From Tetraselmis striata (taxonomy: Eukaryota > Chlorophyta > Chlorodendrophyceae > Chlorodendrales > Chlorodendraceae): DNA of 64,000 bases. The DNA is taken from contig VCJN01002586.1 of the NCBI GenBank assembly GCA_006384855.1, forward strand, positions 157,709-221,708. Direction: 5' to 3'. Every line of letters starts with the position of its first letter. Position 1 is the first letter of the stretch. The notes beneath the pieces are model-generated. The model had not been told where the DNA came from. It searched no databases and saw only the letters and a list, made by a program, of their open reading frames with translations. The translations under genes and the position numbers were made by a program. Shown piece after piece: positions 5,638-64,000 of the stretch.

Positions 5638-7330
5638 TGTTTCAACAGGTCGAGGGGGGGAGGGGCGCTGGATGAGTGTGCAGGTGGGTGAAAAAGAATG
5701 AGTGAGAAGGGAGCGTGAAAGGGAAGAAGGGGCGGAAGGGGGAGGGGGCATGACGGCGTGACGGTGGGACTTAAAAAGTATACGACTCTCGCCGCAGTCG
5801 ACTCCAATCCGCCACACACATCCGCCCAGCTTCGCTGAGCCTCGCCCGCCATTCTGATCCCCCCAACCCCGCCCCACCCGGCTAAGCGCGCCCTGACGCT
5901 GTGCGGAGCGTTCTCCCAGTGCCCTTGAAAAACATGCAGGCGAATTGCCTGGCAACGCAGCATGTAGCCAGGGGAAAGAGGGGAAACGACGAGCTTCTTT
6001 CGGGCGGGATTACCGTGCGGACGCTGGCGGCGAGGGAGGCGGTGCAGGGAGCGGGTCCGCGAAGCCTCTGGGCACGAGGTCCTGCGAGGGAGAGGGAACC
6101 GCAATGTTATGTGAGTTATTTGCGCATGCGGCAGTCTCCGCCGCGCAACGGCCCGCCGCGCTCGTACTGCCGGCGTTGCGGGTCGGCGCAGCGCCAGATC
6201 GCGGACGGGCGAGATTTCCTGATCGAGATCGCCGAGGCTTAGGCTGCGCCGCCCCGCGCGCAAGTGCACGCGGGCGGGGACCAGGCGCCCGGGGGGGCGG
6301 AGGATAAAACTGCTTACGGCGGAGGGTGGGGTCACCTTCGGCAGAGGCGGCGGCGGCGGCGCTTCCGAGCTGGAAGGCGTTGCTACGAGGGGAATATGAA
6401 GTGGCGGCGACTCGGCGGGTGGCTCCGCGCAGGAGGGACGCGCCGCGCAGCAGGGAAGCCGTTGTGCGGGGTCGAGGCGCCGCGGCTCGCGGTGCCGGGC
6501 TGGGGAAGCAAAATGCAGAGGTGGTGGGCGGCTGCGATGGCATACGGAGGGGATCGGGGACTGGGCGGGAAGCGTGTGGGTGGGTTGCTACGTTGCTACC
6601 TGTATATGGTGGTCGATGGTCGCTACTTGTTTCCGAGACGGTACCTCCCGCGTGCCATCGCAGCAGAGTCGCCGGCGAACCCACCCAACCAAAAAGAATT
6701 ATTAACCCACCCGCTGCTGGCCAAGCAGTAGCGGGAACGGCCGCGTGACGCTGCATCGTCATCAGATCATCCACGACAGTAGCATCAGAACGCACCCCCG
6801 CCAGCATCGTCATCGCCCGCGCATGTAGCGACTAATATGTAGAAGGATCATGTATCGTCTGGATTTCTGTGTGGATTTCTTGAATGTTGCGTCTACGGGT
6901 AGCACAGCATGTAATCACACATGTACAGTAGTATCGACATCAGCAGCGCAGCAGCAATAACCTGTAGCCAACAGACAGGCGCTGATCTAATAAATAATCC
7001 TATTAAAAGCAAGTAGCCTAGGATGCTCGTCGCGCACGAATATAATTGCCTAAATCCTAAATCATTGAATAAATCGTTTATTATGCTGATATATTCCGTA
7101 ATACATTCTTCAGTGATCGGCACTCCCATTTTTAAAAGGTTTTGGGCAGGCGCACAGCCGTGCACCGGCCCGCCCGCCTGGACCGCCGCGCCGCCACTGC
7201 CTCAACTGCGAACACGAGCGCTGGTAACCTTGCAGGTATCGTCAACACTGCCCGCCGACAGAGCAACCCGCAGGCTCCCTCTCAACACAAACGCTCGCGC
7301 GTTGCTCCTGCACCCCACTGACAGCCCCAA
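5638..7330. other. Intergenic region between divergent genes
   Basis: This holds the 5' regions of the minus-strand aminopeptidase and the plus-strand CGL160-like gene. The GC-rich part (5,900-6,550) can be read on the minus strand as a possible transit-peptide exon (ATG at 6,543) for the aminopeptidase, but I could not connect it in phase. The stretch 6,820-7,150 is AT-rich and looks non-coding, a candidate shared promoter. Confidence 0.4.
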
Positions 7331-7873
7331 GTGCCTGGCGTCACCGCAGTGGTGGATTCGACCGCGAGATCCCACATAGCCCGACGTTGCGTCCTGCCGA
7401 CGCCAGGCGCAGGTTCATCGCGGGTAAGCGAGATGCCGACCGCTACTGCGCAGGGCGCCGTCGTCGTGCGGTGCGTCCCACTTATTGCTTGGAGGCTTTG
7501 GGGTATTTCTGATTATTTCTGATGGGGTGAGACGCCCATCTGACTGTGGTCTCCCCGCTTCCACTCCAGCTTTGCGGCGCTTCATCAGGCGCGGTGGCGG
7601 GCATCGCCCCGAGCGCGCCCCGCAAGCGTCGCTGTCCGGCAGCCGTCGCGGGCGGTTCGGGTCGGCCGCGCAGGGGCTGGCGGCGGCCCACTGCGCGCAG
7701 CGCCCGAGGCGGGCTTCCCCGATGCAGAGGCCGAGGCCCAGTACTACGCCAACTACCAAATATGGCTGGAGAACACACAGCGCGACGGCGCTGAGGTGCG
7801 AGCGGCTGGCGCAGCTTCCGGGCTGTCACTCCGCATACTTTCCATGTGGCTACCTGTTCCGATGCCAACAAAG

Positions 7874-26496: not shown

Positions 26497-26690
26497 TACA
26501 TCAGGGCTTTCACAAAAGCGCACTACAACAGAACTAACAACAATTATGAAAGGTTGCCAGCAAAAGAGAGACATAAGCCTGAAACCAAGGTCGAGCATGA
26601 GGACGGGGAGCCAAAAACCAAGAAGGAGCCAAGGGAACCATGAAGTCACTTAGCTGCCAGGAACTAAAGGAACCCCCGCCCCGGGGTAGG
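26497..26690 (+). repeat. LTR fragment of the Ty3-type family at 62 kb
   Basis: This matches the reverse complement of about 61,960-62,130 over most of its length, including GAGAGACATAAGCCTGAAAC, GCGCACTACAACAGAACTAA (near match) and the repeated GAGCCAAG blocks. It is probably the end of a long terminal repeat left by an element of the same family. It abuts the 3' end of the 26.7-28.1 kb ORF. Confidence 0.65.
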
Positions 26691-26693
26691 CTA

Positions 26694-28145
26694 TCAGGCG
26701 CGGCGAGGACGCTTGCAGCCAACGACCCGGGTCATAGCAACACATGCCGACGAGCGACGCGACGCAGGCGCAGGAGCACCATCACGTGCCGCACGCGCAG
26801 CCGCGACCCCGCCAAGAACGTTGTCTGCATGTGCCATGTTGATGAGCAAGGAGAAACGGCGGCGCCACGCAAACAAAAGCTGGCCGATTTTTTGGCCAGT
26901 GTGTGCTTGTCTAGCTTTCGCGAGCTCCACCAAGAAAGCCTCGGCGTGCGGGGCCAGCGAGCCAAACTCGGAAACGGCGAAAGGAACAGAGCGAAGCATG
27001 CCGGCAGCGTTTCGGACACCCTCGTCATACTTCTGGATTTTGCGGCGCTCTGCAGCCCGCAAAGCAGTCGTTGGATCCGAGGTTGACACGCCGAGGATAG
27101 GGGCAATGGTGGTATCGACAGCAACCGTGTTTCCGCGGATGCCGCCATACCCAAAAAGCCCAACATCGGCAGGCCGCCCGTCGCTGCCCTTCGGGAGAGA
27201 AACAAGCACCGACGGGTCCGTGAGGATATGGACACCCACGCCCCGCGCGGATTTCACGTCGTGGCAAATGTCGGAAAGGCCATGTGCCGCCCACTCGTGT
27301 GCGGCGTGATTGGAGTCGCCCCCGGAGCAACGTGCCACGTGATCAGCGTATGCGACCGCCCAAGTTGAAGGAGTGAACTCCACGCCAGCATCCTCAAAAC
27401 GGGCCAGCATACCTTGTACCGAGAAGGAGCAAAAAGCAAAAGAGCATAGCTCGCCAAGGGAGAGGACAGGAGCCGCCGGAAGGCCAAATGGGCGGCAAGC
27501 GGCAACACGGAACATGGAATCGTAGTACTCAGGGGAACGCTCACGGACTTCACCAAGGCGACCCTCACTTGGAGGATCAGTCACCAGGAACGCCGTCGCT
27601 GCGCGTAAGAGGCGGCCTCGGAAGCGGTTGCTGTCAGGGCCGCTTGTAGGCATACGCGCAACAAGCTTTGCGAAACGGACCGTGTGAATGCGGTGGCTCA
27701 GGGTTTCCTGTACTTTCCGCATGGAGTGCAAGGGGAAGTCCGAGTAATGCGGGATAGCTTGGAGGTCGGCCGCCGAGCGCATTGCAGACGCCGGCTCAAC
27801 CCCTGCGGTCGAGCAGCCGGCACGGGCAACGTGGGAGCGCTTGGAGGGGAGCAACTTTAGGGCAGAGGCCAACGGCCCCGCTAGATCTTCGAGCACCGCG
27901 TCTCCACACTCGTCAATGACACGGGTATGAGCGGCGCGAAGCTCGACTGCCCACATCGGCGCCGACGCGTTGGCGCCGGCATCGAGCTCCAACGTTGGGG
28001 TGGCCAACGCCTGGTGGATCGAGGACGCCCCAACAAGGTAGAGACTATGAGGGCTGGATACGCTGGACGGGTCGGAAAAGAACGCCCCGGCGTCGCTCAG
28101 GGTGGCGTGTTGAGCACGGAGGAAAGTCACAGCTTGGCCAACCAC
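26694..28145 (-). CDS. Retroelement ORF with restriction-endonuclease-like C-terminal domain
   Basis: Uninterrupted 483-codon ORF. Its C-terminal half has the pattern of the PD-(D/E)xK nuclease-like domain seen in algal and oomycete reverse-transcriptase-type proteins: a His-rich segment (HAAHEWAAHGL), RPADVGLFGYGGIRG, NTVAVDTTIAP, AERRKIQKYDEGVRNAAG, then SVPFAVSEFGSLAPHAEAFL. No reverse transcriptase motifs (no YxDD) are present, so it is either a 5'-truncated element or a stand-alone ORF. A second degenerate copy of the region containing the endonuclease core lies at 54,708-54,980 on the opposite strand, showing that it is mobile. The ATG at 28,145 is simply the first in the open frame. 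The domain call is recalled family similarity. Confidence 0.65.
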   Translation of the reverse strand: MVGQAVTFLRAQHATLSDAGAFFSDPSSVSSPHSLYLVGASSIHQALATPTLELDAGANASAPMWAVELRAAHTRVIDECGDAVLEDLAGPLASALKLLPSKRSHVARAGCSTAGVEPASAMRSAADLQAIPHYSDFPLHSMRKVQETLSHRIHTVRFAKLVARMPTSGPDSNRFRGRLLRAATAFLVTDPPSEGRLGEVRERSPEYYDSMFRVAACRPFGLPAAPVLSLGELCSFAFCSFSVQGMLARFEDAGVEFTPSTWAVAYADHVARCSGGDSNHAAHEWAAHGLSDICHDVKSARGVGVHILTDPSVLVSLPKGSDGRPADVGLFGYGGIRGNTVAVDTTIAPILGVSTSDPTTALRAAERRKIQKYDEGVRNAAGMLRSVPFAVSEFGSLAPHAEAFLVELAKARQAHTGQKIGQLLFAWRRRFSLLINMAHADNVLGGVAAARAARDGAPAPASRRSSACVAMTRVVGCKRPRRA

Positions 28146-41224: not shown

Positions 41225-42420
41225 ATACAGGTACATGCGCTTACATGAGCGATTCAATGATGGCACAAAGCGGGTGCTCAGTTTGAGAAAGTCGTTGTAT
41301 GGCCTCAAGCAATCCCCTCGGAATTGAAACAAGTTGATCAGTGGATGGATGCTACAAAACGAGTGGAAGCAGTGCTATAAATATTCTAAATATTCTTGTC
41401 TGTACTACTAATGCTATCAAGATGGAGTATTTTCTATGTTGGGACTGTACGTGGATGGCATGCCCTTTATTGCGTCGACCTCCGTGGAGTGTGCTACCCA
41501 CGTTAAGCAGCCGATTAGTGAGCGCTTCCAGATCACCGTCACGGATCGGTAATGGCTTGTGGGCATGCACATCGCCATGGACATAGCCAACCGGACTATC
41601 ACACACGACCAGCCGAAGTACATTGGTGGCATTCTGTGTTAGTTTCGGATGGAGGACTGCTACCCCTCTGCACTTCCCATGGACACTGACTACAAATTCA
41701 CCTTCCTTACTCAGCGCCGCCGTCACCAGCACTTGGAGTGGAGGGTCGTGAAACTTACCGGTCACTGATGGGCATCCTCCTGTATGTCGGCTGCAATATC
41801 AAACTTGGCATAAGTGCTGCTCTCAACATTATGGGCCAGGTGCAAAAAACACCATGTCACATGCATTTATTGACTTCTCTGAAGAAGATCCTCCGTGATC
41901 TCAAGGGCACGTAGTCATGGGGACTCACCTTGGGGGGTCACCGGCCAGTCTGCAACTCACATGCTATGCAGATGCTGACCATTCCGGGGATTTGAAATAT
42001 CGCCGCTCCAGGTTTGGCGGCTATCTCTACTTTCTGGGTGATCATGGCGATGTTAGCTGGAAATCCAGACTTCAGCCACTCGTGTCAACCTCTATACCTG
42101 TGAGGCAGAGTATTACTCTCTCAGCTTCGCTCTAGAGGATGCCCTACATCTCCGACAGCTCGTGGGGGAGCTGCTGGATCGGGATACAACCAGCGTGTCA
42201 GCCGAGCCAGTCTATATCCATCAAGACATTCAGAGAACCATCAAGTACTGTCAAAATTCCATCGTCAGTGACAAGACTAAGCACATCGACATCAGATATC
42301 ATTTTGTCAAGGAAAGAATCCTCTGGGGCACAATACATCGGGTACTCGCCCACAACTGAGATGGTTGTAAACATGCTTACAAACCACTTCCCAGGGAGGC
42401 GGTGAACATACAACCGCGCA
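41225..42420 (+). pseudogene. Ty1/Copia reverse transcriptase/RNase H relic
   Basis: The order of motifs fits a Copia pol 3' end: LRKSLYGLKQSPRN (RT), LYVDGMPFIAS (YVDD changed to YVDG), TITHDQPKYIGGIL, then RNase H with CEAEYYSLSFALEDALHLRQ and KTKHIDIRYHFVKERI. Stops and frameshifts occur at about 41,324, 41,550, 41,640 and later. A dead copy, followed by a likely LTR. Confidence 0.85.
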
Positions 42421-53935: not shown

Positions 53936-54707
53936 CGCCATAAAGGTGTCCACTGGTGGTGATATATGGGGAAAGGTGTTTGGCTGCGCAGTGTGCAAAT
54001 ACAGCAGCAACATATGTCATTGTCCGGGAAAAAAATAGCATCAATGGCAGATTTTCAGAGGTAACACTCCAAAGTGAACGTTTTGTCAACGACATGGAAA
54101 TTTGGTGTGTCACAGGTAGAATATGATAATGACAGAAACGGTGTTTGAGGTTTTTGTTTGTGTTTTGGAGGTAGTTGTCTGTGCTGATGAGAGTGTATGT
54201 TCCGCCGTTGATGGTGCGACCATGGAAGACCCAAAGACCACAACATGTTGGCCCGAATGATGCAAAGCAGAGTGGACATGGTTGGTAAAGGGCCATGACC
54301 ATTGTGCATTGTTAAGAGGCACTCCCGTACTACCGTGTGAACCAGTATCCCTCCGAAGATAGCGCACACACGGCAGTATGATGTCACGTGGTTCGGCATG
54401 ATGGGTGCTTGTCAGAATCAAATGGATCTTGCCTCCGGATTGGAACCGATTATTGAGACAAGTGGCAGTCAGCACCATGACCAGCCCCAAAGCGTCCCTT
54501 GGGGGATCACTGGGTGAGCACAATCCACACCATTGATTCCCAAAACCACATCGGGCCCCAATATGGCAATACAACACCACAAAGGAATTCATATGGTGAC
54601 ACATCGCAAGAACTTATGTTCGATTGCGGCATGCAACAGCGCACAGCAAGGTGCACTGTGCGAATAGTGTTGGTTGGCTTAGGGCTTAATGTGATCAACC
54701 GCAATAT
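53936..54707 (-). other. Internal 3' part of an LTR element or unidentified insert
   Basis: Upstream, in minus orientation, of the LTR junction at 53.93 kb. Overlapping ORFs of 135-164 codons exist (53,895-54,302; 54,110-54,604) but none shows a pol motif. It ends at 54,707 where the endonuclease-domain fragment begins. Confidence 0.35.
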
Positions 54708-54980
54708 TTGAGGATGCTGGCGTGGAATTCACTTTTTCGGCTTGGGCGGTCGACGCGTACGTTGATCACGTGGCACGTTGCTCGAGGGCGACTAGAATTA
54801 CGCCGCACATGAATGGGCGGCACATGGCCTTTCCGACGTTTGTCACGACGTAAAGTCCGCCTTGGGCGTGGGTGTCCAGATTCTCACGGACCCGTCGGTG
54901 CTTGTTTCTCCTCCAACCGGCCGATGTTGGCCTTTTTGGGTATGGTGATATCCGCAGGAACACGGTTGCGGTGTCGATAC
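54708..54980 (+). pseudogene. Truncated copy of the 26.7-28.1 kb retroelement ORF
   Basis: By eye, strong nucleotide identity to the reverse complement of about 27,120-27,400, covering FEDAGVEFT..., GRHMAFPTF (frameshifted) and ADVGLFGYG, up to GTCGATAC at 54,980. There similarity stops abruptly and Copia sequence begins. Small indels shift the frame. Confidence 0.85.
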
Positions 54981-55480
54981 TAGGTGCTGACCTCAGTCTC
55001 GGTGCACTGTTCGGACTCGCGGGGGTCGCTGGCCACACTGGGAACCTTGGCTGCACAGCACTGCTCCATTCCAAATCGAGCGAGGAGGTCACGGATGTAC
55101 TTTGACTGATGAATGGTGATGGTACGTGCTGCTCGGTCTCGCTCAACCTTGACTCCCAATAGCCATGAGCAGATGAAGCACAGTAATGACAGCTCATCTT
55201 GTACGGGGCACTCGCCAGTCATCACCGCTCCTGCATAGGACTGAGTCTGCCACGAACCATCATCTGGGTTGTACACTCTGCGGTGTCTGTTGTGCACTCC
55301 TCGGGTGCCCTGTCGGGTACGCGTTGCTGCGGCTGGCGTTGGCGCGGTTGATGAAGACGGTGCGGTCGCAGGTGCAGTGCCGGATTGTAGTGGCTGATTG
55401 GGGACGATCGGCGCGCGAATGACTGGTGTCGGGGGCAGTGGGGTGATAATAGGGGGCTGAGCTCCTGGCATAGGAGGAGG
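54981..55480 (-). pseudogene. Copia element: residual reverse transcriptase
   Basis: The minus strand reads SWLLGVKVERDRAARTITIH and QSKYIRDLLARFGMEQCCA, the segment that follows the RT core in Copia pol. The core with YVDD is missing: the sequence runs from the pre-RT linker (PDDGSWQTQSYAGAVMTGE) straight into this part, so there is an internal deletion of most of RT. RNase H is cut off at 54,981 by the junction with the 54,708-54,980 fragment. Confidence 0.8.
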
Positions 55481-57096
55481 GGGAGTGATTTCTCTGCTCG
55501 GAGGCGGAGGTGTTGCTTCGCGAGGCGTTGTAGGCTCAAAGGAACTGGGCGCCGGGGGTAAGGTGCTGTCAGGAGTATCACTGTGGTTGCTGTCGTCCCT
55601 GCCGTTGTCGCTGTCGCTGTTGCTGTGGATACGGTTGCAACTCCGGGTAGAGCCCCAGGCACGAGGTAGCGGGTCGATGGGCTGCGGTGCTGCGCATGTG
55701 GGGCAGCGGGGATTCGGGGCTTTTCCAAGGGCGGATGCCCCTCCTAAGGTGGACGCCCCTCCTGAGGCTGACGGTGGTCTCGACCCCTCCTGAGTGGCAG
55801 CATGCTACTCATCTGGCACATCAGTCGCCACGGCGGGACCATGGGGCGTCTCATCGAAGGCGACGGACCGGCTGGCGATGACGGTGCGTGTGTCAGCCAT
55901 GTAGACTAGCCACGCTGGGGAGTCGGGCGAGTAGCCAATGAACGAAGATGCCCTTGCGGGCTGAGTGAGCGAGTTTGCGCCGATTCTCTCGGGGGGTGTG
56001 GACATAGGCTGGACATCCAAAAACTCGCAGGTAGGACAGGTCGGGCACGGCGCCGGTGATTTCCGCAGTTGGATATCCGCGACGCCTCGCTACATGGTGC
56101 GGTTGTAGATATGGACTGCGACCATCATACCAAACTCCCAGTACGAGTCCGCGAGGGCGGCATGGGTAAGCATGCAGTACGTCCAGGTATTGAGAGTGCG
56201 CCACGAGCGTTCAGAGAGGCCAATCTAGAACTGGCTGTAGGGGGCTGCATATGTGCGACGCACTTGTAACTCGTCACAGGCGGCAATGTATGATGCGCTC
56301 CGGAACGCGGTGTCATTGTCAAGTCGCATGGCTTGTACAGTGAATCCGAGGTTGACAACCATTGTGTTGAAGGCGCGGAGACAAGTAAATGCCGCAGAGC
56401 GAGAGTGCACAAAGTACAGGCATGCCATGGACGAGGCGTAGTCAACGGCGCCACAGCACTAGGTATTGCCTTGCAAAGATGGAGTCATGGTTTCTTAGAA
56501 GTCCCAGCCCACCAGTGAGAAGGGGACAGTGGGTTTGTCGTGGCATCGGCGCGGCATCGGTGCAATAGTCGACTTGACCAGTGCACATGCCTCACAAAAC
56601 GGTAAGCTGATGTGCTGGAGGTGACCATAGCGGGGGACATCGTGGTCTGCCAGGGCGGCATCCATTGCACGCTCATGGAGATGACCGAGACGAGCGTGCC
56701 ACAGTATCTTGATATGTTCCTTCGGCAAGCGCACGGCCAGCATGCCTGTGGAGCTAGATGTGTCGGCGGACAACGATGATTGAGCGCGCGGTAGTGACTG
56801 CTGTGTTCAGCACAAAGAGCTGACCATTGATCTCAATGGGGACAGATACATCGTCGGATGGCATTGCGCTGAGCTGTCATCAGCGCTTTGAAATCTGGGT
56901 TGGCTATCTGAGCGGCTCGCGCACTGAACAGCCGAAGCACACGTCCATTTGATTTCGATGCCAGGTCGGGGACGTGCAGGCGATTGCGGACCATGGAAGA
57001 CACAGAGCGTTCATCCTCAGTCTGCATGGTAAGGTGGATTGTGCCCACACCCACTGCGTACGCGCCAAGCCCATTGATCCATCGTCGGGTTATAGT
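55481..57096 (-). pseudogene. Copia element: integrase region, decayed
   Basis: Pre-integrase HARLGHLHERAMD (about 56,665-56,703) and FCEACALVKSTI (zinc site), then the core with VGWDF (first Asp, about 56,500), RLDNDTAF (second Asp, about 56,310-56,330) and SERSWRTL (Glu, about 56,195-56,218). SYLRVFGCPAYVHTPRENRR and FIGYSPDSPAWLVYMADTRT (with SRSVAFDE after it) lie before the RT linker. Stops at about 56,225, 56,460-56,495, 56,785 and 57,097, and a frame change near 55,960, show it is inactive. Confidence 0.85.
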
Positions 57097-58140
57097 TCAG
57101 TAATCACCAGCGTCGGCGCAGTCTGCGAAGCAAGCGGCCATATAGGACGTGGCGCCGGTGTCGAGCACCCACTGGTCAGGTAAGGTGTGGATGCTGGGCA
57201 AGGCTGTTTTATCCTTACAGGATGTCATGGAGATAGCGAGAGCCAACCAGCGAGCAACGTTGGCATCAATACACGCTCCAAGTGCACGACGTCGTAGGTT
57301 CTCAGATATGCCAAGGAGGTTGAGCGTGGACTGATCGAAGCCCATGCTTTCGCAGCGGACGTCGCAGTCAGGTTCCGTCCAGACTTCATCGAGGAGCAGC
57401 ATGCCGCGGCCCGGGGTTGGGCCGTGCATTCTATATGCCCAGGTTCCCTTGCGAGATGACAGGAGTTTTGGAAGGACGTTGTCTTTCGGGCGCGGGGGAG
57501 CCGCCCATGCATGCGAGAAGTTGCCACGGGTAAGCATGTCATCCACTGTCACTGGTGGTCTCACACATCGCTGATAGTGTCGTCGCAGGTCAGCAAGGCT
57601 GTGAATGTTGGTCCAGAATAGAGTGTCACGTCGTGCAGTGGAGCCCAGTTCGTGTGCTCGTGCGAGCATGGGCTGCCCAAGGGCTGCGCGGATCTGTGGT
57701 AGCCGAGCCGCGCCAGTGACATTTTCAACCACATAGTTGAGACCACGCGGCTGTTGGCGTTGGATCCCATAAACGAGTCTGGTCGTCGCAGAGAATGCAT
57801 GTGCTCGGTCGTCTCGCATGCCTAGACGGAGCCCCGCAACAGAGAACGGTTGACACGGTGGGGAGCTGACCACCAGCTCGACAGGTGGCAGAGATTGGAA
57901 GTCCTCAGCCGAGAGTTGGTTGACATCTTGTGATGGGAGGCGATCAAACGCATTGTCCACGGCCGCACGTGGCAAGCTGTGATACCATTTGCTTTGCAGA
58001 GTGTGTAGCTCCGACTGAGCTGCTGCCGCGATTGCACGGTCGTTCTCTACCAGTGTCACCATACTAAAACGATGCCCTAATGAGCACAGCTCACCAAGGC
58101 TGATGAAAGTATCTCCGCTGCAGAGGCCAACGTAGTGAAT
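57097..58140 (-). CDS. C5-cytosine DNA methyltransferase fused to Copia protease
   Basis: The uninterrupted ORF runs 58,062-57,097 (321 codons). Coding sequence for motif I extends upstream in the same frame to about 58,140 (HYVGLCSGDTFISLGELCSL). Methyltransferase motifs in order: SAM-binding G-rich start and LVEND (motif II), SSPPCQPFSVAG with the catalytic Cys (codon at 57,853-57,855), VVENV (motif VI, about 57,720), ARRDTLFWTN (motif VIII-like), and a C-terminal MGFDQSTLNLLGI...LGACIDANVARWLAL (motif IX-X-like). The spacing and C-terminus recall DNMT3-type enzymes, but with PCQ instead of PCN. About 30 codons later the same frame gives the Copia aspartic protease DQWVLDTGATSYM (DTGA at 57,151-57,162), then stops at 57,097. 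The initiation point is unclear; in a Copia element it would be part of a polyprotein. Confidence 0.85.
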   Translation of the reverse strand: MHYVGLCSGDTFISLGELCSLGHRFSMVTLVENDRAIAAAAQSELHTLQSKWYHSLPRAAVDNAFDRLPSQDVNQLSAEDFQSLPPVELVVSSPPCQPFSVAGLRLGMRDDRAHAFSATTRLVYGIQRQQPRGLNYVVENVTGAARLPQIRAALGQPMLARAHELGSTARRDTLFWTNIHSLADLRRHYQRCVRPPVTVDDMLTRGNFSHAWAAPPRPKDNVLPKLLSSRKGTWAYRMHGPTPGRGMLLLDEVWTEPDCDVRCESMGFDQSTLNLLGISENLRRRALGACIDANVARWLALAISMTSCKDKTALPSIHTLPDQWVLDTGATSYMAACFADCADAGDY

Positions 58141-59780
58141 AGGCCATGACTTGCTAAAGGCTGTGCTATCGGGTTTCAGGTGTTGAATCTCTGTGAGGGG
58201 GCAATGCTGTCCAGGATGTCACGCTCTTGCTGTTGGCATGCATCTCATGCTGACAGTTGGTCTGTAGCGTCAGTGCGGGTGCACCAATGCTGCGCGCGGC
58301 GGCGAGCTCGGCGGCGTTGACGCTGTGTGCGGCGTCGCCATTGTCGCTTGGCATCGCGGTCAATCAGCCCATTGTCATAGTGACGAGCTACATTGTGATG
58401 TAGTTCTGCGAGCGCCGTTAGCGCACGCCTCATGTAAGCACCTCCAGGAGAATCATCATCGTAGTCCGGATCACTGCTATCATTGGTGGAGTCAAGAGCG
58501 AGAGACGGCATGTCTCCCTCGGTGTGCGCGGTGTGGGCAGAGCGCTCATGCTCATCCTCAGAAGGGTCATCTGACGTGTCAGAGTTGGATTCGAGGTCAG
58601 GCATGTCTCCATCACTGTCTGTCTGGGTAGTGTAGGTATCGCTGACATGCATAAGGTTGCCTAGGCCTGGAGTGCTGCGCAGTTATTGTCTGGGGAGCGT
58701 CGACAGTGGATACCGTGCCGGGCGTGGGATGTTCATGGCGGATGCCAAGCGCATTGAACCGCCCCTCGGCTGTCTCGCGAGCAGATGAGACCCATAGAAG
58801 TCGTAGTCCTGAGGTGTGCCTTGAAACGCTTCCAGAGCCGCAACTGCAGCTGAGCTCTCCATCTGTTTTGTGTGGGACTGGCGAGCCATATGGGTCTTGT
58901 CCGGTTGAGCAGCCGTTTTGGGCAGGGGCTGGTGTCTGCCCCGCATGCGGCTGAAAGTCAGACACATCTGGCGCTTGGTGCGACGGCCACTCGGCGGTAG
59001 GGCTGTTAGATGAGGTGATGCAGCTGGTACATGCTTGAGGCAACATGCGTACACGTACTGATGTAGCCATTTGAGCTCCTCGTCACGGCGTTCCGAGGAG
59101 CTGAGGATTGCTGGCTCCGAAACCAACTCCTTGATTTCCATGACAAGTGTTCCGGCCACTTCCTCCATCGCGGCTTGTGTGGCCCGTTCTTCCACTGCGA
59201 GGGCATGCGCTCGCGCGAGTGTCTCACGCTGCCGCACAAGGAGAGGCTCTTCGTCAGGGCCACCAAGGCCACGCCCTCCTGCCAATGCTTGGTACAGGTT
59301 GACTGTGGTCGTTGTCAGCGGAGTGGTTACCGCGCTTGTCGCGCTGATGCCGTGACGAGTCTTGGTTGGCACCCACTGCCACATGCCTGCATCCCCTCCA
59401 TGCGCGCTGGAACTGCTCGCATCGGGCATGGGCGCCGGACCTTTGCCCTTGGCTCGCGTTGACAAGCGGCGTGCCACAGGGGGGCTTGACCCCGAACAGA
59501 TTGGCTCGGATGTGGGTGAGCGGGCTGGTGCAGAGATCATGAGCGGTATGCTCTCGTCGACAAAGGTGAGAGTGCCAAACGGGCTCTGCAGCAGGGACAT
59601 TGGGGAGCTGCGCACCAATTTTATACCGGATCTGTCAACCGACCAGGCTTGCGGCGGCATTGGGGGCAGTGAGTGGGGTCTCAGCAGGTGGGAGACTCGC
59701 GTCATCCGCAAGGAAGCTAAATGACAGTGCGCCAAAGTCGTGAGTAGGAGCGGTAGTTGTTGGAACAGCGTCCGCTGCAA
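58141..59780 (-). pseudogene. Copia element: extra segment between gag and methyltransferase
   Basis: Coding-like sequence absent from ordinary Copia elements. After a frame change near 59,690 a long open stretch (to 58,683) includes a probable helical segment (ARAHALAVEERATQAAMEEV, EELKWLHQYVYACCLKHV) and DYDFYGSHLLARQPRGG. It is followed after a stop by an acidic region (58,480-58,650; DSDGDMPDLESNSDTSDDPS, DPDYDDD) and a basic Arg-rich stretch (RRRTQRQRRRARRRAQ, about 58,275-58,325). At least two further frame changes separate it from the methyltransferase. No known domain is recognised. Confidence 0.6.
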
Positions 59781-60956
59781 CATGGGTCTTGGCACGACAT
59801 TCTGATTCACGGTGCCTCTGACGCCCGCAGGTCTAACACTTGCCACTGAACGGACGAGAGGTGCGGGGGGCACTAGGACCGGTGTGGCGGCCCCGGAATT
59901 TGCGGAGTTCCTGTGACTGAGCTTGGAGCTGAGTTTGTATCTGCTCCAGCTGCGCCATCAGGGCTGCAATGTCGCCTGATGGAGCGGTCGGCGGTGATGA
60001 AACGGCTGCCACTGGGGGTGCGGATATCCGAGCAGGCCCTGCGGTGAAGGCTCCAGTCGGGTCCGTGCTGGGACTTGGGAGTGATTGGAAGAGCGCTGAT
60101 TTGTAGGGAGCAAAAGTGGTGAGTGAGGTGTCCATTCGTAGTGCAACGCGGTACATCTATATCTCGGGATTCATGCCATGTTTGAAGAGGGTCAACATTT
60201 CACGATATGTGATGTGACCACCTGCATCCAAGAGCGCACTGCGGCATTGCTCCAAACGGCGAGCGTAGTCACGCACCGACTCGGTTGCACGCTGCTTCTC
60301 ATCCAGGTCACGACGCCGCTCGAGGGCTTCACCTTCATAACTCGGGATGAACTCGAGACGCAGAGCTTCCAAACAGTGGTAGGCTTGCCGACCATTGGGC
60401 CCAGCATCCTCACGGGCTGTCAGAATTGCATTGACTGCGATTGGGTGCTTGTCAAGCAGTGACAAGAGCAGCTGGGAGACCTGCTGGTGGTGATACGCAA
60501 TGCATGTGTCGTCGGCATCACTGGGCTCAAAGATGGTGCGATAGCCCTGCACATTCTTGATGGATTCCTTGAATTGCACGAGGAACATGCGGAAGGCTGC
60601 GATATCGTGACAGTCTGACACTTGGAGGTATGTGAACTGCTTGGGCCGGAGTTCAGCGTCACGGCGCAGACGGCGGTCATCTGCTGCAGCTTGGGCAGCA
60701 GCCGCAGCACGAGCTGCAGTTGTTGCCGCATGAGCCTCTGCAGCAGCAAGAGCGGTTGCATCATCACTAGGCGGGCTTGTAGCCCGGCTGCGGCGGCAGC
60801 GGCAGCAAGAGCCTGGTGATGTTGCGCAACAGCATGAGCCTCCGCAGCAGTAACAACAGCGGCTGCGTCAGCAGACACACAGAGTTCTGCTCCATGCGCA
60901 ACACCATCAGTGATGATGCCACTGGTTACATGTGCTGGCGGGTTAGCGTCCGCCAT
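59781..60956 (-). pseudogene. Copia element: gag
   Basis: Start ATG at 60,956 (MADANPPAHVTSG). An alanine-rich N-terminus carries a frame change near 60,780. The main helical domain (60,157-60,650) contains TYLQVSDCHDIAAFRMFLVQ and ATESVRDYARRLEQCRSALL, typical of retrotransposon capsid-type gag. A stop (TAG) at about 60,154 interrupts it. The nucleocapsid zinc knuckle CxxCx4Hx4C is visible at about 59,795-59,840 as C-stop-TCGRQRHRESEC, with a stop codon between its first two Cys. Confidence 0.8.
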
Positions 60957-61929
60957 GATGAAGGTGGCGAAGGTTAGCGAGTTACGCATACTAAGGGGCA
61001 CTTACTAGTATATCCCCGCAAGGTGAGGCCTGGTGCCAGTAGTGCGCCCGCCTCTCTGTTAGACTTGGGCACCTTGCTCCGACAGAACCAGCTAGAAACA
61101 CCCCAGCGCCAAAGCACTGATGTCAGCGAGGGCTCAAAAATCGCACTCCCAAAGGAATAAAGGCAGCTGCAGAGAAGCATGCCTAGGAGTGTGACCGACA
61201 CACCCCTCCTCAGCACACCGGTGATGGAAACGAGAGCGCCACCAACGCTCGGAAGACCGAGAGGGGCAACCGAAAAGGCAGCCCACCAGAGACCATGTGG
61301 GGGCAGCCAATGCAGCACCCACGGAACAGAGCAATGCGCCCACAGAGGAGTGTCAGCAAGGCAACTCCGGCGTGCAGTAAGCCATAACCTTTTGGAGTTG
61401 GTGTAGGTTGTCTTGCAAACAAGCGGCAGCTGAGGGTGGCTTAGAATATGTTAAAGTTCTCAGGGCTCAACAGAGCCCTTAGTACTATCAGCGGCTACAC
61501 CTGCTGGCTATGGGCTCAGGCGTGGATGCTAGCTGGTGCACCTTGGCACTGATGTATTCCAATATATAAAGCATGTTGAGCCGCCGTTCTGGCGGCTCTT
61601 GTCTCTAAACTACTGGCTGAGGTGGTGCCCAGAGTTGCATGACCATCTGAGGTCATTCTAGAGTGTCTATGTTCGCCTCATGCCTGTTGATGGCTCTCTA
61701 GGAACTAGGCTCCTTCATGTATTATGCCATGTATGTACTATACCAAATAAGTATAAGAATATAAAATATAATATAGTATCAGTATATACCATAAGTACTA
61801 CTGCCAAATATCGGCGCAACACATGCAGCTCTCAGTGGGCAGTGCAGTCTGCCAAACACTGCAGTTGGTGGCCTTATTGTCAGATCAGTAGATCAGTAAC
61901 AGACCAGTGTAATCTATTACTACTCAACA
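60957..61929 (-). repeat. Probable 5' leader and LTR of the methyltransferase Copia element
   Basis: About 80 bp upstream of gag the minus strand reads CTACTGGCACCAGG, where TGGCACC could be a primer-binding site complementary to a tRNA 3' end. Minus-strand TGTTGAGTAGTAATAGATT at 61,929 is a candidate LTR start. The 3' LTR is not recognisable because the element is truncated at 54,981, so the LTR cannot be confirmed by comparison. Confidence 0.35.
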
Positions 61930-62503
61930 CTGCTGTAGTGCTTCCCTTGACCCTTTGGTTCCTTGGCAGCTTGGCGACTTCGTGGTTTCCTTGGCTCAGT
62001 CTGTCTTGGTTCTTGGCTCCATGACCTCCTGCTTGACCTTGGTTTCAGGCTTATGTCTCTCTTTTCTGGCAAGCTTTCATAGTTGCTTTTAGTTCTGTTT
62101 GTAGTGCGCACATGTTCAAGCACTGATGTAAGTAATGAAGACAGTACAGACGCTACCCGGTACCGAACGGCTCGCTGTACCGGGCGGGGCACCGATTGAG
62201 GTCGAGCTGTTATTAAAAACCCGTTCATTACTTTTGACGCCTGTAGTATGGCAGCCGCTGACGAGGTACATGTGTTTTGTAGTTCTGCTGTGAGGGGATG
62301 CGCTTATGGTGGCGAGAGTCTGTGCTACTCCGAGGTTGTGAGGGTGAGAATGTTATGATTACAGTTCCGGCAGGGCGCCGTGCTGATATATCAGCAGGCG
62401 CCGATCGGCCGACGCGCCTACACGCCTACGCGCCTGGCGCTACGCGCCTTAAAGTGTGCTACTGTTGATTAGGGTTAGTGAGGGTATAGGATATATCCTC
62501 ACA
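61930..62503 (-). repeat. 3' LTR of the Ty3-type element
   Basis: It begins after the polypurine tract (minus strand AGCGGGGTGGAA, 62,504-62,515) with TGTGAGGATATATCC. Part of it (about 61,960-62,130) recurs at 26,497-26,690, proving a dispersed repeat. The far end near the Copia LTR is not exact. Copia may have inserted into or next to it. Confidence 0.6.
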
Positions 62504-62538: not shown

Positions 62539-64000
62539 TCACGGTGAAAACCTTTGCGGGTGGCTCGCCTTAGCAGCAAGGTATGTTGGTGAGGTCGAGA
62601 TATGTTTGTATCGTTCTGACAGCATATAGTGCTGCATCAGCGGTGAATACCGCATCGTTTCATAGGGGCTCCAGTCATCTCCGGTTGCTGGAAAATTATG
62701 GAACCTTACTTTGAACAGCAAGGCTTTGCCCTTTGCATACAGTCTGGGGTATAGTGCCAATTTACAATCAGTGATGTCCGCAATGATTGGGTCATCAGTT
62801 CTGCGCGTCTGTCTGCCAATCAAGGCATCCGGAATGTCTGTTTGCGCAGATATAGTATCCCAGGGTCTCAGCTTTGAGACATAAAACACTGGGTGGCACT
62901 CAAGCTCAGGTGGTAATAGTATTTTGTAGGCCTGAGGGTTCACCTGTTCCATGACCTCATATGGTCCTACATATCGTTGTTTGAGCTTGGGACACTTATG
63001 TCCTCTTATGATCATATCGTCAGTTTTTACCATTATTTTGTCACCGATCTGAAAAGTCATCGGCTGTTTATTGTTTTTGTCATGGTAATGTCTTTGGTAT
63101 TCTTTGGCAATTATGATGTTTTCATGCACCAAATTGTGTATATCTTGGATTTTTGACAGAATGTCTATGGTAGTTTCTCTCACTCCAGTTTTGGGATTTA
63201 CAATATCGATTGGCAACTGAGGATGGAAGCCATATATTGCCTGGAATGGAGTAAATTTTGTGGTTGACGATTCTGTGTTATTGTAATTGAACTCAGCAAG
63301 GGAAAGGTAGTTGACCCAATCCTGCTGGTTATTGTAACAGAATGCTCGCAGCAACTGCTCAATGATTTTGTTGAGAATTTCAGTCTGTCCATCAGTCTGC
63401 GGATGATATGCAGTACTGAGATTTAAAGTTGTACCAAGCTGTTTGAACAGTTCTTGGAAATATGATGATGTATATTTGACATCTCTGTCTCCTATCATAA
63501 AGGTACTGAGACCGTGGAGTTTGTATATATTTTTGATGTACAGTTGTGCCAGTTCAGGAGCCGAGATGGCTTTCTGGCATGGTATAAAGTGTGCCTGCTT
63601 TGTGAACAAATCCACAAGTGGATTACAGTCATAACCATCCACTGATGGTAAATTTGTGAAAAAGTCAAGACTGAAATATTCCCATGGTACAGTTGGTGTT
63701 GGCAGTGCTGGTAAAGCCGCTGCTGGGGCCTGCGTATGCTGTTTTGTCAGCTTGCAGACATTACAGTTTCGAATATATGATTTTATGTTTTGGTGCATGT
63801 GCGGCCAGCAAAAAATTCTTTTGATCAGGTTCTCTGTCCTGAGTATACCGTTATGGCCAGCCGTCTTAATATCGTGATGTTCTTTGATGATGCTCTTTTT
63901 GAGTTCATCATCATCATCATGGCTCAGATCAGTATGGTAATTATGGTGTTCTTTGATGATATGGTTCAGATCAGTATGGTAATTATGGTGTTCTTTGATG
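62539..64000 (-). CDS. Ty3/gypsy chromovirus-type integrase (pol C-terminus, partial)
   Basis: Open frame running off the right edge. It contains the HHCC zinc finger (HDIKTAGHNG ... HMHQNIKSYIRNCNVCK), the catalytic core with SLDFFTNL (Asp), IGDRDVKYTSSYF (Asp) and DGQTEILNKIIEQLL (Glu), the GPY/F region (KQRYVGPYEVMEQVN), and a C-terminal chromodomain-like segment (ALLFKVRFHNFPATGDDWSP). A chromodomain places it among plant and algal chromoviruses. The integrase is intact as far as seen, unlike the other elements here, so this copy may be young. RT and RNase H would lie beyond 64,000. Confidence 0.92.
   Translation of the reverse strand, partial: IKEHHNYHTDLNHIIKEHHNYHTDLSHDDDDELKKSIIKEHHDIKTAGHNGILRTENLIKRIFCWPHMHQNIKSYIRNCNVCKLTKQHTQAPAAALPALPTPTVPWEYFSLDFFTNLPSVDGYDCNPLVDLFTKQAHFIPCQKAISAPELAQLYIKNIYKLHGLSTFMIGDRDVKYTSSYFQELFKQLGTTLNLSTAYHPQTDGQTEILNKIIEQLLRAFCYNNQQDWVNYLSLAEFNYNNTESSTTKFTPFQAIYGFHPQLPIDIVNPKTGVRETTIDILSKIQDIHNLVHENIIIAKEYQRHYHDKNNKQPMTFQIGDKIMVKTDDMIIRGHKCPKLKQRYVGPYEVMEQVNPQAYKILLPPELECHPVFYVSKLRPWDTISAQTDIPDALIGRQTRRTDDPIIADITDCKLALYPRLYAKGKALLFKVRFHNFPATGDDWSPYETMRYSPLMQHYMLSERYKHISTSPTYLAAKASHPQRFSP
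63921..64000. repeat. 42-bp in-frame tandem duplication at the N-terminal side of integrase
   Basis: CAGATCAGTATGGTAATTAT (plus GGTGTTCTTTGATGATATGG) occurs at 63,925 and again at 63,967, a 42-bp period (14 codons) that keeps the gypsy pol frame open. It continues past the window edge. Confidence 0.85.

Follow-up and report, generated by a model that had tools for sequence, protein, structure and literature searches.

A C5-cytosine methyltransferase domain in the polyprotein of Copia retrotransposons of the green alga Tetraselmis striata, with a proposed role in self-marking

The window, a 64,000-nucleotide stretch of the chlorophyte Tetraselmis striata (contig VCJN01002586.1, positions 157,709 to 221,708), carries on its reverse strand a decayed Ty1/copia retrotransposon in which a C5-cytosine methyltransferase domain runs in frame into the element's protease. 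The fused frame occupies window positions 57097-58218 (-), 373 codons from stop to stop, with its stop codon at 57097-57099 (-). Residues 93-169 of its translation match the Pfam family PF00145 (DNA_methylase) with 35.6 bits (E 8.9e-9), above the gathering score of 22 bits, and the catalytic motifs share the frame with the protease motif DTGAT (Table 1). A preliminary description, made from the sequence alone, had claimed this fusion and its PPCQ, ENV and RRDT motifs, and both are borne out. The interval it gave, 57097-58140, does hold the domain but cuts off its N-terminus, since comparison with L031, an open-framed element of the same family, puts the domain at ~58197-57193.

Delimited by blastn and tblastn against L031, the representative of what we call family A, the window copy is a dead relic, since several frameshifts and stop codons interrupt its gag, knuckle and linker frames, most of the reverse transcriptase (RT) is absent (blastn found no counterpart of L031 positions 7101-7857), and only the 5' long terminal repeat (LTR) is present, no 3' LTR and no match to the last part of L031 having been found. 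Protease and integrase are followed by a mere remnant of RT, and a Retrotrans_gag match in the open reading frame 60157-60867 (E 0.0083, 16.8 bits) lies below the cut-off of 24.1. That the methyltransferase frame is still open in such a copy is probably luck. Both flanks (54707-54980 and 61952-62130) match, in inverted orientation, one repeat elsewhere in the window (26497-27398, 84-87%), so the copy apparently lies within another repeat, and its 3' end may have been lost to a later deletion.

The window's own genome (224,097,584 bases in 2903 contigs) holds at least 111 matches to the window methyltransferase at E <= 0.001, fragments included (110 of 525 first-look candidates scored), and the frame is therefore not a product of chance. 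Stop-free frames of at least 2000 amino acids surround 20 of the 111. A family-D query gave at least 122 matches (119 of 504 candidates scored) and revealed a further family, E, with five matches in stop-free frames of at least 2000 amino acids; the PF00145 profile itself gave 123 matches in the genome, in transposons and elsewhere. We read one open-framed element from each of five families, A-E. All five have two LTRs and a 5-bp target-site duplication (TSD), and all five share one domain order: CCHC zinc knuckle, PF00145, protease (DSGA or DTGA), pre-integrase, integrase, SH3 domain and RVT_2, which is the Ty1/copia order of protease, integrase and RT. The methyltransferase match exceeds its cut-off in A, B, D and E and falls below it in C (18.5 bits). 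Also below Pfam cut-offs are the integrase in B, D and E, the pre-integrase in A, C and D, the beta-barrel in E, the knuckle in A and C (D and E match only other knuckle models, weakly) and the gag match in A. Pfam gave no gag match in B-E and no RNase H match in A-E, RNase H motifs being visible in some of them. Methyltransferase-bearing Copia elements thus form a group of five families whose frames are open and whose insertions include young ones, and the prediction that other genomic copies would carry the domain in this order holds for the element read in each of them. Neither of the refuting conditions named in the preliminary description, lack of a methyltransferase profile match and lack of the domain in other copies, is borne out.

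Table 1. Features of the window copy and of the element read from each family. LTR lengths are as aligned; TSDs were read by eye from the flanks, and those of B, C and D are shifted 1-2 bases at the LTR edge.
Feature	Window position or contig	Strand	Remarks
5' LTR, family-A Copia copy	61390-61930	(-)	two pieces, 92.6-94.7% to L031 LTR (blastn)
Body of decayed copy	54981-61390	(-)	pieces 92.6-95.8% identical to L031; ends just behind RT remnant
Gag region, interrupted	59905-60956	(-)	tblastn pieces of L031
CCHC zinc-knuckle region	59722-59901	(-)	internal stop codon
Long linker, knuckle to methyltransferase	58215-59721	(-)	frameshifted
C5-cytosine methyltransferase domain	~57193-58200	(-)	open throughout; limits by comparison with L031
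Motif I-like LCSG	58105-58125	(-)	
Motif IV PPCQP	57847-57861	(-)	
Motif VI ENV	57718-57726	(-)	
Motif VIII-like RRDT	57622-57633	(-)	
Motif X-like GACIDAN	57259-57279	(-)	
ALPSIHT at methyltransferase-protease junction	57184-57204	(-)	
Copia protease region	56923-57192	(-)	contains DTGAT
Protease motif DTGAT	57148-57162	(-)	same frame as catalytic motifs
GAG-pre-integrase domain	56537-56746	(-)	E 3.9e-7
Integrase core	56087-56536	(-)	with stops; tblastn 90.7% to L031
SH3-like domain of Pol (SH3_retrovirus)	55814-56072	(-)	E 5.8e-8
RT C-terminus remnant	54981-55172	(-)	
Family A, element L031	C2193		LTR 512 bp, 99.8% identical; TSD ATGTA; frame 2483 codons
Family B, element L032	C2750		LTR 469 bp, 100% identical; TSD GGCGC; frame 2299 codons
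Family C, element L033	C997		LTR 447 bp, 100% identical; TSD GACGG; frame 2147 codons
Family D, element L034	C193		LTR 324 bp, 98.5% identical; TSD CTCTT; frame 2164 codons
Family E, element L144	C1014		LTR 481 bp, 100% identical; TSD ATGTC; frame 2162 codons

Predicted proteins agree with these readings. A piece of the family-B polyprotein matches six Tetraselmis striata proteins in EukProt, three at 98-99% identity and the others at 87-91%, in keeping with the earlier claim of a chlorophyte example; one of the EukProt proteins of this species, P0005, unites knuckle, methyltransferase and RVT_2. The fusion is also present in P0001, from a 6.7-kb ENA contig. This protein appears to come from another genome, because, with 92 of 688 candidates scored, its best long match here reaches 48% identity, and a piece of 154 residues 58%.

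Conventional Copia elements inhabit the same genome. The representative of family G, L146 (G000:C1926:1200-6900), resembles A-E in uniting a weak gag match, protease, integrase and RVT_2 (5.9e-68), along with SH3 and pre-integrase domains, in one frame, but this frame has 1561 codons and no PF00145 match; tblastn of six enzymes (A-E and the enzyme of a long interspersed nuclear element, LINE, described below) against it gave nothing better than E 0.033. Of 150 RVT_2 matches, at least 40 have a frame of this same length, 1561 residues; judged by that length and the one element read, these 40 or more would also lack the enzyme. Two other candidates for methyltransferase-free Copia, L148 and L149, were dropped, the stretch upstream of L149 (L152) showing a family-C methyltransferase. 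Elsewhere in the window lie a second, distant Copia RT with downstream remnant (41259-42384 (+), ~27-39% to A-C and G) and a Gypsy-type integrase end that runs off the window (62539-63999 (-); Integrase_H2C2 1.8e-17, SH3_Tf2-1 1.1e-18).

The nearest relative of the Copia enzyme that we found outside Copia appears to be carried by another retrotransposon of the genome. One PF00145 match on contig C2687 lies in a 3505-residue frame, and in the 10-kb stretch read there (L145, G000:C2687:14900-24899) a single 2765-codon frame that runs past the edge of the stretch encodes a weak endonuclease match (E 0.012), RVT_1 (1.9e-25), PCIF1_WW (PF12237, 9.1e-15), PF00145 (1.1e-8) and RNase H (9e-11), domains by which we take L145 to be a LINE. 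It has three full-length matches and one split one at 91-100%; contigs with matches beyond L145 itself are C653, C2172 and C596. PF12237 is a family of mRNA-cap adenine methyltransferases; L145 joins two methyltransferase-type domains, one PCIF1-like and one C5, in a single retrotransposon. A profile built from the A-E enzymes scores the LINE enzyme at 240 bits over profile positions 12-322, against at best 50 bits, over part of the profile, for 11 free-standing database enzymes, and a profile of all six scores the frames of 12 PF00145 loci of the genome (L112-L123) at no more than 15 bits. Pairwise identity between the LINE enzyme and each Copia enzyme (29-34%) is like that between A-C and D-E (29-36%). 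By these scores, the Copia elements and a LINE of the same genome share one enzyme clade. Nine of the genomic loci (L112-L117, L120-L122) encode C5 methyltransferases that stand alone, 325 or 341 codons long and in several copies each; PF00145 matches them to position 320, and they lie outside the transposon clade.

Searches for a donor covered several collections. None of 8000 scored candidates was a close free-standing donor, the best match not of Copia type having E 1.3e-6, and prokaryotic genome contigs gave no match to the enzyme. A single-protein query of viral contigs gave no confirmed match; an alignment query gave 77 loci, whose matches lie in or near the catalytic core, and none of these loci reached the C-terminal half among the best 40 profile-search matches. 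The best-ranked viral match, on the 58-kb IMG/VR contig L035, is 42% identical over 69 core residues.

In an unrooted tree of the Copia elements from the protease onward, A, B and C are joined, D and E are joined, and the methyltransferase-free G sits on the branch between them, with all supports 100; from the protease on, G is 41% identical to A-C, and D and E are 31-32% identical to A-C. The enzyme tree has the same two groups, and the LINE occupies the position that G has in the Copia tree (supports 100, 81 and 68). The possible histories are one capture with later loss from G, two separate captures, and exchange with LINEs; we favour a single capture in Copia because the enzyme stands before the protease in all five families.

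The domain retains the core of a C5 methyltransferase. Cys117 of motif IV and Glu160, Asn161 and Val162 of motif VI are invariant in all five copies aligned, which represent four families, as is the motif VIII arginine; all of these residues are also kept in family E and in the LINE enzyme. Structure prediction gives the class-I methyltransferase fold of C5 enzymes, with the DNMT3A/B catalytic domains as the best fold match to the predicted domain. In a profile search of the PDB, HaeIII is the best match (3.1e-8), with DNMT3A at 3e-5; the best sequence matches also include DNMT2/tRNA methyltransferase chains (E 0.0096; 1.6e-5 in the profile search). We assign the Copia enzyme to no named DNMT family; it is not close to the other methyltransferases compared. 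In family B it is under purifying selection: the pooled ratio of nonsynonymous to synonymous substitution rates (dN/dS) is 0.225 in the methyltransferase, 0.441 from protease to integrase and 0.696 in the linker (11 copies; three of the 14, L015 upstream and L025 and L030 downstream, were left out for a broken flank). These are pooled Nei-Gojobori values from pairs that share history, and are descriptive.

The ends of the domain hint at how the enzyme might be released. Each of the B and C polyproteins read has two LPS[IVL] motifs and no more, one at either end of the methyltransferase. These could be cleavage sites at which the protease releases the enzyme, or a scar of the insertion; the former is favoured because both copies are kept in B and C. 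In families having these junctions, the protease would cut out the enzyme, which would be packed into the particle alongside RT and integrase and would methylate, before integration or during it, the cDNA of the element itself (or newly inserted copies). Each new copy would then be marked on arrival in the genome, and the mark might keep it from being recognised as foreign or modulate its silencing, much as the preliminary description had supposed. We thus read the window as a dead family-A copy of a Ty1/copia group with a C5 methyltransferase built into its single polyprotein between Gag linker and protease, with excision and self-marking as the proposed role, and give this reading as a whole a probability of about 0.72. 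A bolder version, in which a C5 methyltransferase lineage resident in green-algal retrotransposons moved between LINE and Copia and, in Copia, is cut out by the protease of the element at paired LPS[IVL] junctions and methylates cDNA before integration, is tentative and falls somewhat short of even odds.

Several observations weigh against the proposed role. The canonical motif X of C5 methyltransferases is GN[SA]V; it is absent from A-E and the LINE, which have G.C.D.N (A-D and the LINE) or GGVIDLN (E) in its place, so that the motif IX/X-like C-terminus noted earlier holds only loosely, and motif IV varies between PPCQ, PPCA and PCCE. LPS[IVL] occurs once in A (C-terminal end), once in D (N-terminal end) and not in E. 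The methyltransferase is not needed for Copia transposition in this genome, because Copia without the domain is present and, by frame length, numerous. The dN/dS of the domain shows weaker constraint in C (0.449, nine copies), D (0.422, eight copies) and A (0.50, three copies, one being the dead window copy), values that compare similar copies and on which post-insertion mutations would weigh more. Finally, the trace of past methylation is faint. Relative to L031, 14 family-A copies show C-to-T changes at 420 of 7311 CpG sites (5.7%), compared with 217/8686 at CpA, 262/7265 at CpC and 271/6626 at CpT (2.5-4.1%), and AT-to-GC changes at 5.1%. The CpG excess varies by copy, the largest being that of L011 (61/498 versus 18/696, 36/566 and 20/577), and the CpG observed/expected ratio of the window and of the seven loci measured lies at 0.79-0.98. 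The excess of CpG decay is small and the signal weak, with no sign of heavy CpG methylation.

Four other explanations bear on these data. The enzyme may act on RNA, methylating cytosines of packaged element RNA or primer tRNA in the manner of DNMT2, which we regard as unlikely: the DNMT2/tRNA methyltransferase chains among the PDB matches point that way, as does the report that a tested SymbioLINE-Dnmt gave no DNA methylation in yeast, for which RNA was suggested as substrate (PMC5890265), while the best profile match is a DNA enzyme, HaeIII, and the best fold match is DNMT3A/B, neither of which decides the substrate. A catalytically dead domain retained for a structural or nucleic-acid-binding role, like DNMT3L, is less probable still. 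The altered motif X and the PPCA and PCCE variants would fit it, but DNMT3L is without the catalytic cysteine, glutamate and arginine that persist here across families and in the LINE.

About as improbable as RNA methylation is capture from a host DNMT3-like gene, independently of the LINE and as in the Klebsormidium Gypsy element. The DNMT3 fold match is compatible with such an origin, but the profile scores set the LINE enzyme far above the free-standing enzymes and the 12 genomic loci, the latter being 12 of 123 PF00145 matches in which exon-split host DNMT genes are hardly sampled. An isolated insertion, a chimaeric assembly or a frame open by chance might have been suggested by a relic with a broken frame and no 3' LTR found, and is ruled out for practical purposes by at least 111 genomic matches, five families of the same order, the same order in Tetraselmis striata proteins and the probable second genome. 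A methyltransferase built into the Copia polyprotein extends the carriers of cytosine methyltransferases to another retrotransposon superfamily and another eukaryote lineage. Several copies appear to be young, and the conventional Copia of the same genome offers a control for self-methylation. If the clade shared by LINE and Copia is real, accessory epigenetic genes can pass between unrelated retrotransposons with no host capture needed each time.

In the open-access literature, to which our search was mostly confined, we found no description of a chlorophyte Copia element with a DNMT. PMC5890265 places retrotransposon DNMTs in LINE and DIRS elements of Symbiodinium and Gypsy elements of Klebsormidium. 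According to this paper, such enzymes carry out de novo CG methylation, and the Copia elements of Symbiodinium lack a DNMT. The dinoflagellate and Klebsormidium captures named in the preliminary description are right in part, the latter being Gypsy, not Copia. One sentence of PMC12344493 names DNMT3 in 'LTR Copia and DIRS' of streptophytes and dinoflagellates, citing PMC5890265 (2018), which describes Gypsy; the word 'tetraselmis' is absent from its text, and the mention is possibly a slip or an undescribed case. PMC6338049 contains speculation on antiviral roles, PMC9998398 lists DNMT5a and DNMT6 in Tetraselmis with no retrotransposon case in the part concerned, and the portions of PMC12542154 and PMC10120064 consulted have nothing bearing on Copia and DNMTs.

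Among the systems described in PMC5890265, a close one is KnitGypsy-Dnmt3 of Klebsormidium nitens, likewise an LTR retrotransposon whose Pol frame contains a C5 methyltransferase under purifying selection. That element is a streptophyte Gypsy whose enzyme is a Dnmt3 by tree, whereas the present ones are chlorophyte Copia with an enzyme not assigned to a named DNMT family; unlike it, they place the enzyme before the protease, and the window copy has PPCQ at motif IV. SymbioDIRS-Dnmt3 and SymbioLINE-Dnmt of Symbiodinium are likewise retrotransposons with C5 methyltransferases, and the LINE enzymes there also form an orphan lineage, but the cases described are DIRS and LINE, with no Copia among them, and the SymbioLINE enzyme lies in an open reading frame upstream of RT, whereas that of L145 follows RT and precedes RNase H.
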